Shown: positions 24,911-35,748 of the stretch, in pieces | How the letters are laid out: each line of letters starts with the position of its first letter | How positions within the stretch are numbered: the first letter of the stretch is position 1 | Position numbers and translations under genes: made by a program | Notes under the pieces: generated by a model | Database searches by the model: none | What the model was told of the DNA's origin: nothing | What the model saw: the letters and a program-made list of their open reading frames with translations, nothing else | Source of the DNA: Streptomyces sp. NBC_01775 | Lineage (GTDB): Bacteria; Actinomycetota; Actinomycetes; Streptomycetales; Streptomycetaceae | Length of the DNA: 64,000 bases | Direction of reading: 5' to 3' | Assembly (NCBI RefSeq): GCF_035917675.1 | Contig: NZ_CP109104.1 | Location: forward strand, 3,906,001-3,970,000

Positions 24911-27127
24911 TCACGCCCCTCCGTTCCCTGTCGCGGCCAGCACGGCGGCGATGGCGAGCACCAGTGAGCCCGTCAGAAGCGCGCCCAGATAGGTCTGCAC
25001 GTTGCCGGTCTGCGCGCGGCGCACGGCGGCGCCCAGCAGCCGGGAGCCGCGCCCGGCGCCGTTGACGTAGGTGTCGACGACCTCGCGGTCCACGAAGCGC
25101 ACGAGCCGGGCGGCGCCCTGGAGCGGGCGTACGACCAAGGCGGCGTAGACGGCGTCCAGGTGGAATCCGGCGGCGGCGTGCCGGTGCAGCGGACCGAGCA
25201 GCAGCAGACCGGGGTCCACGTCGTATTCCGGATGGAGCGCGGCGTGCGCCGTGGTGTGCCGCCAGGTCGCGTACGTCACGATGCCGCCGACCAGTGCGAC
25301 TCCGGTGGAGAGCACGGAGGTGGTCAAGGTGGGCGCCAGGGAGCGGCCGTCGAACCAGTCGGGCAGCACGAGGAAGCCCAGCCCCGCCGCGAGGGAGGGC
25401 AGCGCGAGCGCCCACAGGACGGCGGTCATCACGACGGGCTCCCGGCGCTGGCCGTCGTCCGCGCGGCCGGGCGCGGGCATGGCCAGCTCCGTCTCGGGCG
25501 CCTGCTGCGGTACCGCCTCGGGCACGTGTTCGGCGGCCTTCTCGGCGCCGACGGCGAGCGGCACGGGGCCGCTGTCGGCGGCGGCCCCGGACACGGCACC
25601 GTTACCGGCGGGGCCGGGGGCGGAGGCGGAGGCCTCGGTGGCGGAGGCTCCGGTGGCGGGGGCTCCGGCAGGGGCACCGTGCGTTTCCCGGAGCGGGGCG
25701 CCGTGCGTTTCCCGGAGCGGGGCGCCGTGCGTTTCCCGGAGCCGCTCGGGGGCGCCTGCCAGCAGCCACAGGCGGGCCGCGTAGGCGGCGGTCAGGAGCG
25801 CGGTGAGCAGACCGGCGGCGAGGACGATCCATCCGGCGCTCACCGGAACACCGGGCGCCCCCTCGAACGCCGCGTGCGCGTCCCCGAAGGCGGCGTGCTC
25901 GGCAGCGGCCAGGACGGCCTCTTTCGAGAAGAATCCGGAGAACGGCGGGATGGCGGCCAGCGCCAGCAGTGCGATGGTCATCGTCCAGAAGGCATCCGGT
26001 GCGCGCTTGGCGATGCCTCCCGTACGGGCCATCACGGTGAGGGAGTTGGTGCCCGCGGCGTGGATGACGACTCCGGCGGCGAGGAAGAGCAGCGCCTTGA
26101 ACGCGCCATGGGTGAGCAGGTGGAAGACGGCGGCGCCCCGGTCGGCGACGGCCAGTGCGCCCGCCATGTAGGCGAGTTGGCTGATGGTGGAGAAGGCCAG
26201 GACGCGTTTGATGTCGTCCTGGGCGAGCGCCGCCAGCGCGGCGCCGGTCATCGTCAGCGCCGCCATCAGCGCCAGGACGACGAGCGCGGCCGAGGAGGCG
26301 GCGAAGACGGGCAGCAGCCGGGCGACGAAGTAGATCCCGGCGGCGACCATCGTCGCGGCGTGGATCAGCGCGGAGACCGGCGTGGGGCCCGCCATCGCGT
26401 CGGGCAGCCAGGAGTGCAGCGGGAACTGCGCGGACTTGCCCGCGACCCCGGCGAGCAGCAGCAGCGCGATCACCGTCGGATGCGACAGCTCGAACCCGGA
26501 CAGGGACGAGGTCACCCGGGTGACGACCGTGCTGATGCGGAAGCTGCCCGTCTCGGAGGCCAGGGCCAGGATGCCGATCAGGAACGGCACGTCGCCGAGC
26601 TTGGTGACCAGGAACGCCTTGAGCGATGCCGAGCGGGCCGCGGTCGTCTCCCAGTAGTGCCCGACCAGGAAGTACGAGCAGATGCCCATGATCTCCCAGC
26701 CGACGAGCAGCACGATCAGGTCGTCGCTGTAGACGACCAGGAACATCGCGGCTGTGAAGAGGGAGACCAGCGCGGCGTACGAGGGGTAGCGCGGGTCCTC
26801 GCGCAGATAGCCGGTGGAATACAGCTGCACACAGGAGGCGACGACGCCGACGAGCACCGCCACGAGGACGGCGAACCCGTCGAGCTGGAGGGCGAGTTGG
26901 ACCGGGAGCGCGTCGTTGCCCGTCGGGGTCAGCTCGGTGGCGGCGCGCAGCGGCGCCCCGCCGCCTTGGCGGACCGCGACGACGACGGCGAGCCCGGCGG
27001 CGACGACGGTCGGCAGGACGGCCAGCGGCCGGACGAAGCCGGGGGCCCGGCGGCCGAGCAGCAGCCCGGCCACGGCGCCGAGAAAGGGCAGCACGGGGAC
27101 GAGCGCTGCGAGGGTCGTGGTGCTCAC
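24911..27127 (-). CDS. nuoL: NADH-quinone oxidoreductase subunit L with a repetitive insertion
   Basis: A 738-residue protein, longer than the usual 610-640. It has the antiporter core ([40 protein letters not shown] with the key Lys, and [16 protein letters not shown]), and a C-terminal amphipathic-helix region. Residues of about 460-565 form a low-complexity Ala/Pro/Glu-rich insertion containing three in-frame copies of an 8-residue unit (RETHGAPL) encoded by 24-bp repeats. The GTG start overlaps the nuoK stop (GTGA). Confidence 0.93.
25677..25748 (-). repeat. 24-bp tandem repeat, three copies, inside nuoL
   Basis: Units at 25677-25700, 25701-25724 and 25725-25748; the third diverges at its end. 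The period is a multiple of three, so the frame is kept and each copy adds the eight residues RETHGAPL to a loop. Confidence 0.9.
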
Positions 27128-31848: not shown

Positions 31849-32053
31849 GTCCGCCCCGTCCTGTGTGGTCTGTCGCCTGTGTCGTGTCGGTGTGTACGTT
31901 CGAGGATCTGTACGCACGGGAGTCTAGGCCCTGAGAGGGCCGACGAGGACAGCCGCGTCACACTCCGGTGGAGGTGGAAGGTGGGGGTAACCCCACCCCA
32001 GGTCTCCGACGGCCCCCATGGCGTCCCCGGGACCGGGCGGGCAGGCTGAGGCC
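31849..32053. promoter_or_regulatory. Divergent promoter region between nuoA and the first histidine kinase
   Basis: The 205-bp gap is the only place to start the ten-gene nuo transcript and probably also the histidine kinase gene on the other strand. I see no convincing operator palindrome. Clear -10/-35 boxes could not be assigned by eye. Confidence 0.4.
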
Positions 32054-33286
32054 ATGAACGCGAGCCCTCCGTCGCCCTCTTCTGCCCCGGGGGCGCACGG
32101 TGCGGCAGCCGAGGGGGCTCACGGTGCGGCGGCCGGAGTGCCACCAGGGGCGGAGGGCGCCGCGGAATCGCTGCCTCCGCCGAAGGGCGCCCTGTCGCCG
32201 CAGACGTGGCGTGAGATCGCCCACCTGCTCCTCAGTGTCTTCACTGACACTCTCGCGTTCTTCTACATCGCGGCCGGAGTCTGGGTCGGCGGGCTGCTCG
32301 CGGTGACGGTCGTCGGGCTGCCCGCGCTGGCCTGCCTGCTGCTCGGATGCCGGCAGATCGGGAAGTTCGAGCGGGCCCGCGCGCGGGTGCTGCTGCGGCT
32401 GCGCATCGACGAGCCCAGCCCGCTGCACCCGGGCCGCCCCGGGTTCCTGGGCTGGATACGGGCGCAGCTGAGTGATCCGGTGGCCTGGCGGCAGGCGCTG
32501 TACTCCTTCATCCGGCTGCCGTGGGGCTGGTTCACCGCCATCGTGACGGCGTGCTCGCTCGTGGCCTGGCCCGCGCTGCCGTGGGTGGCCAGAGGGCTGA
32601 CCAACGTCGACCGACTGCTCATACGGGTCCTGCTGTCGCCCTCGGACGTGCTGGAGCGGCGCGTCGCCGAGCTGGAGTCGGATCGGGGGGTGGTGGTGGA
32701 TACCGCGGCAGCCGATCTGCGGCGGATCGAACGCGACCTCCACGACGGAGCACAAGCCCGCCTCGTCTCCCTCGCCATGGGCCTGGGCCTCGCCAAAGAA
32801 AAACTCCACGAAGACCCCCACACAGCCGCCCAAATGGTCGACCACGCCCACGACGAAGCAAAAATCGCCCTCCAAGAACTACGCGACCTCGCCCGCGGCA
32901 TACACCCCGCCATCCTCACCGACCGCGGCCTCGGCCCCGCCCTCTCCACCCTCACCGCCCGCTGCACCACCCCCGTCACCCTCAACACCGACCTCACCCA
33001 ACGACCCGCACCCGCCATCGAAGGCATCGCCTACTACACCGCCAGCGAACTCCTCCAAAACCTCACCAAACACAGCCAAGCCCCCCACGCCACCCTCGAC
33101 ATCTGGCGCACCCCACACCACCTCCTCCTCCAAATCCACGACCAAGGAAAAGGCGGCGCCACCCCCCACCCCGGAAGCGGCCTCACCGGACTCGCCGACC
33201 GACTCAACGCCGTCGACGGACTCCTCATCATCAACTCACCCCCCGGCGGCCCCACCACCATCACCGCCCAACTCCCCTGGAGATAA
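32054..33286 (+). CDS. Sensor histidine kinase 1 (putative-sensor domain, HisKA_3)
   Basis: A membrane kinase of about 410 residues. An N-terminal Ala/Gly/Pro-rich segment is followed by a PF13796-like membrane sensor domain (helices around VFTDTLAFFYIAAGVWV, VVGLPALACLLLG and WGWFTAIVTACSLVAW). Then comes the HisKA_3 phosphoacceptor RDLHDGAQARL, and an HATPase with N-box ASELLQNLTKH and G-box GKGG/GSGLTGLADRL. From the residue pair EL in ELESDRG to the stop, the DNA is identical to kinase 2. ATG 32018 is an alternative start. It is in one cluster with a LuxR response regulator. Confidence 0.9.
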   Translation: MNASPPSPSSAPGAHGAAAEGAHGAAAGVPPGAEGAAESLPPPKGALSPQTWREIAHLLLSVFTDTLAFFYIAAGVWVGGLLAVTVVGLPALACLLLGCRQIGKFERARARVLLRLRIDEPSPLHPGRPGFLGWIRAQLSDPVAWRQALYSFIRLPWGWFTAIVTACSLVAWPALPWVARGLTNVDRLLIRVLLSPSDVLERRVAELESDRGVVVDTAAADLRRIERDLHDGAQARLVSLAMGLGLAKEKLHEDPHTAAQMVDHAHDEAKIALQELRDLARGIHPAILTDRGLGPALSTLTARCTTPVTLNTDLTQRPAPAIEGIAYYTASELLQNLTKHSQAPHATLDIWRTPHHLLLQIHDQGKGGATPHPGSGLTGLADRLNAVDGLLIINSPPGGPTTITAQLPWR

Positions 33287-33355
33287 CCCCCACCAACCCC
33301 CACCCCAACCCGAACACCCAACACACACCCCTCGACCAACAACCCCCACCCCCAC
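32669..33355 (+). repeat. 687-bp exact repeat, copy 1
   Basis: Identical by eye over its whole length, without gaps, to 34294-34980 (constant offset 1625). It covers the last 205 codons of kinase 1, its stop and 69 nt of downstream non-coding DNA. Confidence 0.95.
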
Positions 33356-33576
33356 CCGAGCACGCGCCGAGGCCGCACCCGCGTGTGCCTCCGCATCCGC
33401 GTGTACCTCCGCACGCACCCCACGCACGCACCCGCACCCACGCACTCCCACGCCCGCCCCGCCCCACGTAGTGCTGGGGGCAGCCGCGAGGTAGTGGTCG
33501 AGGTAGGGGAAACCCCCGGACCGAGACGGATGCCTGCGCTATTACCCCGCACCGGGCCACAGCGGATCCTGGAGAC
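33287..33576. other. C/A-rich spacer between the two kinases
   Basis: No gene. The first 69 nt belong to the exact repeat. The strand-skewed composition (runs such as CCCCCACC, CACGCACGCACCC, almost no G) continues to about 33470 before normal composition returns. No terminator hairpin is obvious. Confidence 0.7.
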
Positions 33577-34911
33577 ATGGCTTCAGCACCCACGATCCAG
33601 CGTCGCCCCCTGGCGCTCCTCCTGTTGCGCGCTCCGGTCAGCCGGTGGGCCGCACGCGAGATGCTCTACGTCCTCAGCGGTTTCCCGCTCGCCGTGATCG
33701 CCTTCACCTGGTCCTTCGGCGCGCTGGGCCTCGGGGCCCTGCTGCTGATCACCTTCCTGGGGATTCCGGTCCTGGCGGTCGGGCTCGCGGGATGCCGGGC
33801 GCTGGGGCAGCTGGAGCGGGGGCGGGCCAGAGCGCTGCTGGGGCTCAAGGTGGGTGAGCCGGAGCCCGTGCGCGCGCTCCAGCGCTCCAGAGGGCCGATG
33901 GCCTGGGTGGGCGCGCTGCTGCGCAGCGGTGTCTCCTGGCGGCACCTGGTCTACACGCTCATACGTCTGCCCTGGGCGCTGGTCAGCTTCATCGTCGCGC
34001 TCGCCCTCTGGTGCTGGGGCTGGGCACTGCTGCTCTACCCCCTGTGGCAGTGGCTCTTCCCCCGTTACATGGACCGGCCGGCGCTCCAGATAGGAAGGGA
34101 AGGCTTCACCATCGCCTCCCCCGGCTACAAGGGGGCCTGGGTGCCGGACGGACCCGTCGAGGTGCTGGTGGTGTCCGTGGGGGGCCTGTTGCTCACGCTG
34201 CTCACACCCTGGGTCGTCCGGGGCCTCGTCCAGGTGGACAAATTGCTGGTCAGCGGCCTATTGGGGCCCTCTTCGCTGGCGGCAAGGGTGTGGGAGCTGG
34301 AGTCGGATCGGGGGGTGGTGGTGGATACCGCGGCAGCCGATCTGCGGCGGATCGAACGCGACCTCCACGACGGAGCACAAGCCCGCCTCGTCTCCCTCGC
34401 CATGGGCCTGGGCCTCGCCAAAGAAAAACTCCACGAAGACCCCCACACAGCCGCCCAAATGGTCGACCACGCCCACGACGAAGCAAAAATCGCCCTCCAA
34501 GAACTACGCGACCTCGCCCGCGGCATACACCCCGCCATCCTCACCGACCGCGGCCTCGGCCCCGCCCTCTCCACCCTCACCGCCCGCTGCACCACCCCCG
34601 TCACCCTCAACACCGACCTCACCCAACGACCCGCACCCGCCATCGAAGGCATCGCCTACTACACCGCCAGCGAACTCCTCCAAAACCTCACCAAACACAG
34701 CCAAGCCCCCCACGCCACCCTCGACATCTGGCGCACCCCACACCACCTCCTCCTCCAAATCCACGACCAAGGAAAAGGCGGCGCCACCCCCCACCCCGGA
34801 AGCGGCCTCACCGGACTCGCCGACCGACTCAACGCCGTCGACGGACTCCTCATCATCAACTCACCCCCCGGCGGCCCCACCACCATCACCGCCCAACTCC
34901 CCTGGAGATAA
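33577..34911 (+). CDS. Sensor histidine kinase 2 (putative-sensor domain, HisKA_3)
   Basis: A 444-residue paralogue of kinase 1. The N-terminal 239 residues form a different membrane sensor (helices around LSGFPLAVIAFTWSFGALGL, LLLITFLGIPVLAVGLAG, FIVALALWCWGWALLLYPLW and VLVVSVGGLLLTLLTPWVV) with a 40-residue loop absent from kinase 1. The C-terminal 205 residues are identical to kinase 1 at protein and DNA level. Identical catalytic halves imply both feed the same response regulator, encoded 165 nt downstream, from two different inputs. Confidence 0.9.
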   Translation: MASAPTIQRRPLALLLLRAPVSRWAAREMLYVLSGFPLAVIAFTWSFGALGLGALLLITFLGIPVLAVGLAGCRALGQLERGRARALLGLKVGEPEPVRALQRSRGPMAWVGALLRSGVSWRHLVYTLIRLPWALVSFIVALALWCWGWALLLYPLWQWLFPRYMDRPALQIGREGFTIASPGYKGAWVPDGPVEVLVVSVGGLLLTLLTPWVVRGLVQVDKLLVSGLLGPSSLAARVWELESDRGVVVDTAAADLRRIERDLHDGAQARLVSLAMGLGLAKEKLHEDPHTAAQMVDHAHDEAKIALQELRDLARGIHPAILTDRGLGPALSTLTARCTTPVTLNTDLTQRPAPAIEGIAYYTASELLQNLTKHSQAPHATLDIWRTPHHLLLQIHDQGKGGATPHPGSGLTGLADRLNAVDGLLIINSPPGGPTTITAQLPWR

Positions 34912-34980
34912 CCCCCACCAACCCCCACCCCAACCCGAACACCCAACACACACCCCTCGACCAACAACCCCCACCCCCAC
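34294..34980 (+). repeat. 687-bp exact repeat, copy 2
   Basis: Second copy of 32669-33355. Divergence begins abruptly at both edges, as expected for gene conversion or a segmental duplication. Confidence 0.95.
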
Positions 34981-35005: not shown

Positions 35006-35058
35006 CCAGCATCTGGGATGCTGGGCACCGCAGGAAGTGTCGACCGCAGGAAATGTCG
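35006..35058. promoter_or_regulatory. Hairpin and 16-bp direct repeats before the response regulator
   Basis: CCAGCATC (35006-35013) pairs with GATGCTGG (35017-35024). Two 16-bp direct repeats, ACCGCAGGAAGTGTCG (35027-35042) and ACCGCAGGAAATGTCG (35043-35058), follow immediately upstream of the regulator start. They may be an autoregulatory site for the LuxR-type protein, or the hairpin may be a weak terminator. Confidence 0.45.
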
Positions 35059-35076: not shown

Positions 35077-35748
35077 GTGGAGCGCAAGGTGCGCGTGGTG
35101 ATCGCCGAGGATTCCGTTCTGCTGCGCGAGGGGCTCACGGGCCTGCTGACGGACCGGGGGTATGACGTGGTGGCGGGCGTGGGGGACGGCGACGCGCTGG
35201 TGAAGACCGTGGGCGAGCTGGCAGCCGAGGGACAGCTTCCCGACGTGGTGGTGGCGGACGTACGGATGCCGCCGACCCACACCGACGAGGGGGTGCGCGC
35301 CGCGGTGCGGCTGCGGGCGACGCACGGAGAGCTGGGGGTCCTGGTCCTGTCGCAGTATGTGGAGGAGCAGTACGCGACCGAGCTGCTGGCCGGATCCAGC
35401 CGGGGGGTCGGCTATCTGCTGAAGGACCGGGTAGCTGATGTACGTGAATTCGTGGAGGCGGTCGCGCGCGTCGCCGACGGCGGCACGGCTCTCGACCCGG
35501 AAGTGGTCGCGCAGCTGCTCGGCCGCAGCCGTAAGCAGGATGTGCTCGCGGGGCTCACCCCGAGAGAGCGGGAGGTGCTGGGCCTGATGGCCGAGGGCCG
35601 GACGAACTCCGCGATCGCCACACAGCTCGTGGTCAGCCACGGTGCCGTCGAGAAGCATGTGAGCAACATCTTCCTGAAGCTCGGCCTCTCCCAGAGTGAC
35701 GCGGATCACCGGCGGGTGCTGGCGGTGCTCACCTACCTGAACTCCTAG
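35077..35748 (+). CDS. LuxR/NarL-family response regulator
   Basis: A 223-residue regulator. The receiver domain has the acidic pair in IAEDSVLLREG, the phosphorylation site Asp in VVVADVRMPP (near 60) and the Lys in GYLLKDR. The C-terminal LuxR helix-turn-helix is LTPREREVLGLMAEGRTNSA then HGAVEKHVSNIFLKL. It is the evident partner of the two kinases upstream. GTG 35077 is chosen because GGGGGGAA precedes it; ATG 35053 would start inside the direct repeat. Targets may include nuo and kor genes on either side, which is an inference from position. Confidence 0.92.
   Translation: MERKVRVVIAEDSVLLREGLTGLLTDRGYDVVAGVGDGDALVKTVGELAAEGQLPDVVVADVRMPPTHTDEGVRAAVRLRATHGELGVLVLSQYVEEQYATELLAGSSRGVGYLLKDRVADVREFVEAVARVADGGTALDPEVVAQLLGRSRKQDVLAGLTPREREVLGLMAEGRTNSAIATQLVVSHGAVEKHVSNIFLKLGLSQSDADHRRVLAVLTYLNS

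Follow-up and report, generated by a model that had tools for sequence, protein, structure and literature searches.

A strand-skewed, homogenised repeat in the two kinases of an abrC-type Streptomyces locus and its likeness to the GRINS of PKS genes

The AbrC system of Streptomyces coelicolor comprises two sensor kinases, AbrC1 and AbrC2, beside one LuxR/NarL-type response regulator, AbrC3 (SCO4598/4597/4596), and passages of PMC3098853, PMC4428217, and PMC9739842 describe antibiotic production as under its control. According to the same passages, AbrC1 and AbrC2 share 57% amino acid and 83% nucleotide identity, both autophosphorylate, and probably act on AbrC3 with a different kinase/phosphatase balance. 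The other described system that resembles the present locus is GRINS. In passages of PMC10394414 and PMC9899208, GRINS are repeats of more than 500 bp and high identity, with GC and TA skew above 0.25 and a link to gene conversion, and PMC10394414 places them in assembly-line PKS genes.

An exact repeat in an abrC-type locus

Within the window (the whole stretch of 64,000 nucleotides from Streptomyces sp. NBC_01775 that was analysed), two kinase genes and one LuxR/NarL-type regulator gene lie in a row. The features are as follows.

32054..33286, + strand: first kinase (AbrC1-like), an ORF with PF13796 Sensor and PF07730 HisKA_3; the start codon is uncertain, and the ORF opens at 32018
32222..32566, + strand: PF13796 sensor domain of the first kinase, not part of the repeat
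32669..33355, + strand: repeat copy 1 (catalytic core, stop, and 69 nt tail), 687 bp, exact
32735..33480, + strand: A/C-rich (keto-poor) stretch that begins inside copy 1 and runs past its end
33577..34911, + strand: second kinase (AbrC2-like), an ORF with PF13796 and PF07730
33667..34263, + strand: PF13796 sensor domain of the second kinase, not part of the repeat
34294..34980, + strand: repeat copy 2, 687 bp, exact
34360..34980, + strand: A/C-rich stretch of copy 2, which ends with the repeat
35083..35748, + strand: response regulator (AbrC3-like) with a receiver and a LuxR/GerE domain; the start is uncertain, and the ORF opens at 35053

The locus looks like an abrC-type locus, which is a known layout; this assignment rests on the layout and on the conservation of the locus in the genus. 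The three genes are flanked by what I take, by eye, to be nuo genes on one side and a 2-oxoacid:ferredoxin oxidoreductase pair on the other. A NuoL-like ORF (24911-27127, minus strand) carries three tandem LRETHGAP units inside an Ala-rich stretch.

It was found that the two copies are spaced by 1625 and that each holds 618 nt of coding sequence (205 codons and the stop) and 69 nt beyond. In each kinase, the repeat spans the catalytic core, namely the HisKA_3 and ATPase domains in Pfam, while the PF13796 sensors lie outside. The ATPase domain (PF02518) was matched with an E value of 2.4e-4, just under the Pfam cut-off, and the cores of three unskewed relatives gave 3.8e-6 to 1.7e-4. The sensor halves share 0.62 nucleotide identity in a gapped global alignment and 0.27-0.40 in ungapped 45-nt windows taken from 300 to 30 nt upstream of the core. 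A chance origin of the repeat is excluded. An assembly artefact is unlikely because the host genome (9.34 Mb) is in 2 contigs and because a single-contig relative (G290, locus L177) has two cores that are 100% identical to each other. A plasmid search returned only partial matches, none of which extended over as much as 80% of the query.

The coding strand is A/C-rich from about 32735, with a GC skew of -0.53 and a TA skew of -0.48 (-0.44 and -0.43 for the whole repeat). Since the two skews have the same sign, the change amounts to a loss of keto bases (G, T) and a gain of amino bases (A, C). At third codon positions of the core, the base fractions are G 0.03 (2.7%), T 0.00, C 0.78, and A 0.20, while third-position G outside the core is 0.48-0.51 in the sensor halves and the regulator. 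The 69 nt non-coding tail after the stop is also skewed. The skew of copy 1 continues past the repeat to about 33480, while that of copy 2 stops at the repeat end; this overrun at copy 1 hints that copy 1 was the last donor. Over the rest of the window, double skew beyond 0.25 is confined to four isolated 150-nt windows.

With 687 bp and 100% identity, the repeat lies above the GRINS length and same-locus identity (at least 500 bp, more than 80-90%), its GC and TA skews lie beyond the 0.15-0.25 limit, and its link to gene conversion appears as concerted evolution of the cores but not of the sensors. However, the GRINS described in PMC10394414 sit in assembly-line PKS genes, while this repeat sits in sensor kinases. 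Thus, I call it GRINS-like and not a member of GRINS. Other differences are that the present case is a kinase pair at a two-copy locus, with graded states over 101 genomes and with a polarity tied to replication. It also differs from the S. coelicolor AbrC kinases in that the cores are identical and recoded. Since the cores are identical, any difference in output between the two kinases would have to stem from the sensor halves or from expression.

A sequence-only reading of this DNA had claimed the exact 687-bp repeat (205 codons with their stop and the following 69 nt) and clearly different sensor halves, and the measurements above bear out both. It had also argued that selection on the protein cannot explain the identity, with which the identical and skewed non-coding tail agrees. 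Its proposal of two inputs to one regulator fits the AbrC system, for which this arrangement is already known from publications. Of the two origins that it offered, gene conversion is supported and recent cassette duplication is not. It missed the strand skew, as well as the way in which this skew is tied to conversion and replication.

Homogenisation and keto loss among relatives

I compared the locus in two sets of relatives. The first consists of 80 loci upstream of KorA in 79 genomes, hand-picked among the matches listed (194 of 200 genomes matched) and mostly from few-contig genomes. The second consists of 40 further loci in 39 other genomes, which are top matches picked for likeness to the skewed repeat. 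Including the window, 101 pairs have two full cores (72 + 29). Nine loci of the first set (L030, L031, L032, L060, L075, L087, L098, L100, and L109, with L100 and L109 truncated by contig ends) and eleven of the second (L164, L165, L170, L173, L184, L186, L188, L191, L192, L197, and L200) lack two full cores and were dropped. L167, which has Ns, is out of the ungapped 45-nt window and residue-composition comparisons. Seventeen named loci and L127-L161 enter no count and stand only as listed places and scores. Two measures were used: kappa gives the excess of synonymous identity between the two cores over the value expected from the pair's own codon usage, and G4 is G/(G+C) at 4-fold sites.

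Both cores, with both sensor types, are present in 71 of the 80 KorA-upstream loci of relatives. Among the first 72 pairs, which include the window, the two cores of a genome show a median identity of 0.836, and 0.95 is attained by the window alone. Ten pairs of the likeness-picked set have identities of 0.952-1.000 (L162, L163, L166-L169, L171, L172, L174, and L177). Between those lineages and the window, first cores are 0.78-0.89 identical, two sister pairs reaching 0.93 and 0.94, and no core of another genome in the set exceeds 84% identity to the window core. The nearest nucleotide neighbour of core 1 is the genome's own core 2 in 14 of the 15 genomes with G4<0.25. In the protein trees, the sensors are split by gene (0.995) and are within-genome sisters in 0 of 101 cases, while the cores are within-genome sisters in 17 of 101, which are 12 of the 15 genomes with G4<0.25 and 5 of the 86 others. 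These results show that gene conversion keeps the cores alike while the sensors stay different. The sequence-only reading had expected that the two kinases of each species would match each other and differ between species. This holds for the homogenised lineages, where cores sort by species and sensors by gene, but not for most genomes, whose two cores are non-identical.

Several relatives lack part of the locus. G083 and G131 (L030 and L031) have the most similar KorA (93%) and no abrC kinase upstream of it; their best kinase matches elsewhere are only 44-46% identical, so that the abrC kinases are apparently lost. Three KorA-anchored loci with one full core (L032, L060, and L075) have G at 4-fold sites of 0.07, 0.17, and 0.25, respectively. 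In L032 (G070) and L060 (G066), a sensor nearer type 1 stands directly before the regulator, as would be expected from a deletion of the DNA that separates the cores, and a chimeric AbrC1-AbrC2 kinase that arose through deletion is known in S. coelicolor from a passage in a review. The sensor is also nearer type 1 in the single-core loci L186, L188, L191, and L197, and nearer type 2 in L200. Together with L032 and L060, these five loci have 4-fold G of 0.07-0.30, and five of the seven had been picked for skew likeness.

Some loci are affected by incomplete matches or assembly. One of the two kinase cores is matched piecewise or cut in L170 (G340), L184 (G041), and L192 (G224). The draft G356 breaks at or beside the skewed core (contigs C64 and C22; L164 and L165). 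Thus, homogenised pairs may be under-counted in short-read assemblies.

Is the loss of G and T related to the degree of homogenisation? It was found that kappa correlates negatively with G4, with a rho of -0.72 in the 72 pairs not picked for skew (-0.70 minus the window) and -0.84 in all 101. Composition as the cause of the high identity is controlled by kappa itself, from which the synonymous identity expected from codon usage is subtracted. Weakly homogenised pairs follow the same trend, with a rho of -0.61 in the 35 that have kappa<0.3. In contrasts on a tree of sensors and regulator, which took in 100 of the 101, the correlation amounts to -0.51 (72) and -0.62 (100), and 0 of 2000 shuffles were as strong. 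Low G4 occurs on several separate branches of the tree.

Over six rising bins of kappa (11, 24, 19, 25, 14, and 8 genomes), the keto fraction at 4-fold sites of the cores falls from 0.69 through 0.62, 0.51, 0.41, and 0.26 to 0.04, while that of the sensors and regulator stays at 0.57-0.63. The control correlations for keto are -0.18 for the regulator and -0.12 for sensor 1, both not significant, and a weaker but significant -0.37 for sensor 2; for G4 of both sensors they are -0.36 (101) and -0.32 (72), not significant in the contrasts. G falls from 0.65 to 0.04 and C climbs from 0.30 to 0.85, so the main change is a G to C transversion, and GC content at 4-fold sites barely tracks kappa in the 72 (0.07). 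Keto bases also drop at first codon positions, from 0.58 to 0.45. Lys, Asn, Thr, Pro, Gln, and His together rise from 0.17 to 0.28 of the residues (35 low vs 7 high genomes), mainly by Thr and His; thus, the protein is recoded. In summary, the cores of the most homogenised lineages are GRINS-like, and their coding strand is depleted of keto bases to a degree that increases with homogenisation.

I also counted contests, meaning sites at which the two copies of near relatives disagree and both copies of a genome carry one of the competing bases. The counts partly restate the final composition and are therefore supportive only. At third positions, amino bases win amino/keto contests in fractions of 0.40, 0.57, 0.65, 0.77, and 0.91 over rising kappa bins, and A vs G contests shift from 2:52 to 25:0 in the top bin. 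C beats T at third positions throughout, and C is ahead of A in each bin of the few A/C contests (5 to 14 per bin). Over all sites, the amino:keto count is 2123:1107 for the 29 genomes with high kappa, compared with 868:945 for the 20 with low kappa. No gain of C over T with homogenisation was found over all sites (216:34 low, 333:99 high), which the mechanism proposed below does not predict.

Polarity of the skew in PKS regions

With dnaA at 4.70 Mb and the window at 3.94 Mb, the abrC locus lies on the left arm and is transcribed head-on to the fork, so that its coding strand carries lagging-strand sequence. The same orientation is found in all 9 of the other genomes for which both positions are among the matches listed (G006 is not listed there). 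Because abrC does not flip among these genomes, PKS regions were used to examine polarity. The sample comprised 49 polyketide synthase (PKS) stretches from seven genomes of the same genus, with the gene strand taken from ketosynthase matches and L208 left out, and arms were assigned on the assumption that replication runs both ways from near dnaA.

Among 135 PKS runs exceeding 0.25 in both skews, there were none of mixed sign. All left-arm runs (65 with genes on the minus strand and 3 with genes on the plus strand) are A/C-rich on the plus strand, and all right-arm runs (37 with genes on the plus strand and 24 on the minus strand) are G/T-rich on it. Six runs of G105, where dnaA is far off centre, were set aside as unsure of arm, and G086 yielded none. 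Once collapsed, the runs of known arm gave 17 clusters, all of which agree with replication; 11 of the 17 come from one genome (G158). Skew oriented by transcription was rejected, since all 12 clusters where transcription predicts the opposite sign follow replication (two-sided p 0.0005). These results show that the polarity of PKS repeat skew follows the replication arm, the lagging-strand sequence being A/C-rich.

The lagging-strand A/C fraction of PKS windows correlates positively with the best repeat identity in four of four genomes (rho 0.26-0.48). It rises from 0.46-0.505 in windows without a match to 0.69-0.73 at 98% identity or more in three genomes, and it is 0.54-0.585, on 8 windows, in the fourth (G199). 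Double-skew windows make up 1493 of 17626 in the PKS stretches and 8 of 5106 in 260.7 kb of background. All 8 background windows fall in one Pro/Ala-rich simple-repeat gene of the host genome (L218 13.7-14.5 kb, near 3.41 Mb), whose skew sign is opposite to the PKS/abrC repeat rule.

A proposed NucS-filtered exchange and its alternatives

To the observed conversion and polarity I add a NucS step, which I infer. Newly made lagging-strand DNA of one copy would pair with the lagging template belonging to the second copy, and NucS/EndoMS would reject the incoming strand at G-G, G-T, and T-T mismatches, while C-C, A-A, and A-C mismatches would get through. If only amino-amino mismatches pass, only keto-to-amino replacements would survive on that strand; exchange would swap G or T for C or A on the strand with lagging sequence, rarely the reverse, and both copies would ratchet towards A/C saturation. 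Such a filter would predict which base classes are lost and gained, which way the skew points, that a repeat is required, and the dose-response. For abrC and PKS repeats, I regard this combination of conversion, keto loss, replication polarity, and NucS-filtered ratchet as somewhat more probable than not. The wider claim, that the skewed repeats of Streptomyces regulators and antibiotic synthases are the footprint of one such lagging-strand ratchet with an amino-amino mismatch filter, seems to me evenly balanced.

The filter is modelled on mycobacterial work. In M. smegmatis, a passage of PMC11551767 reports that NucS lowers the recovery of G-G, G-T, and T-T more than 500-fold with oligonucleotides directed to the lagging-strand template, and that the other mismatches tested escape it. 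A passage of PMC8228993 reports that loss of NucS raises recombination between 90%-identical sequences 10-fold, so that NucS limits recombination of diverged sequences. The host genome has NucS (a PF01939 match) and no MutS_V (PF00488) match, and the 17 of 17 clusters agree with fork direction. Among 392 genomes of the genus searched for a natural nucS knock-out, 391 have NucS, with weak matches in G132 and G176, and only G108, a draft of about 800 contigs, has no match; thus, no natural knock-out comparison is available. Several points stand against the NucS model. According to a passage of PMC10394414, GRINS occur, less often, in phyla beyond Actinobacteria, some of which have MutS in the control genomes. 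A preprint argues that NucS acts more weakly during recombination in mycobacteria, and a passage of another paper holds that NucS cannot a priori act strand-specifically. The correlation of sensor 2 with kappa and the large share of one genome in the polarity clusters also count against the explanation.

The order of cause may instead be reversed, as stated for GRINS in a passage of PMC9899208: low-complexity, strand-skewed sequence would promote recombination and hence conversion, the origin of the skew being left open. This predicts the same correlation at the high end of homogenisation. However, the relation is already present in the weakly converted pairs of ordinary composition, and the replication polarity is not predicted, so that I consider this order unlikely, although a feedback between skew and conversion is possible. 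Another candidate is a mutation bias between the replication strands that repeated copying amplifies with no mismatch filter involved, deamination of exposed single-stranded DNA being one example. The observed polarity agrees with the leading-strand surplus of G and T that the abstract of PMC3174206 describes as usual in bacteria. But PKS windows without a repeat partner show no comparable bias, the main change is a transversion that deamination does not give, and GC content at 4-fold sites hardly tracks kappa. I therefore regard it as quite unlikely.

Selection on codons or on the kinase protein might keep the copies alike and skewed, since both catalytic cores would have to fit one regulator. 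This was rejected as highly improbable, because the non-coding tail is identical and skewed, co-directional PKS genes show opposite coding-strand skew, and the regulator and sensor 1 of the same genomes do not follow. The perfect identity of the copies would also be expected from a recent cassette duplication, as the sequence-only reading had offered, or from an assembly artefact, with no lasting process. However, most relatives have both cores with both sensor types, and near-identical pairs recur in other lineages with different sequences, including the single-contig genome. A recent duplication or artefact was thus also rejected, as almost certainly wrong.

The proposed NucS-filtered exchange resembles GC-biased gene conversion in being a recombination-linked bias able to mimic selection. 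It differs in that GC-biased conversion turns AT to GC on both strands, while here keto turns to amino on one strand, as in the top-bin contests of A and G. A partial literature search (titles, abstract openings, and passages, with the founding GRINS paper outside it) did not find the link proposed here for GRINS. The founding paper (2021) reportedly calls the mechanism unknown in its abstract, and it may discuss polarity.

That conversion goes together with a one-strand loss of keto bases points to a cause, open to testing, of the skewed repeats in antibiotic genes. Nature offers here a graded series at a locus of only two copies, and this, together with a polarity without exception in the clusters examined, makes the mechanism of GRINS testable at the bench. 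If the proposal is true, Streptomyces would have a strand-specific, replication-oriented, biased gene conversion that is strong enough to recode proteins, and the specificity of mismatch repair would shape how the proteins of antibiotic synthases, and those of their regulators, evolve.
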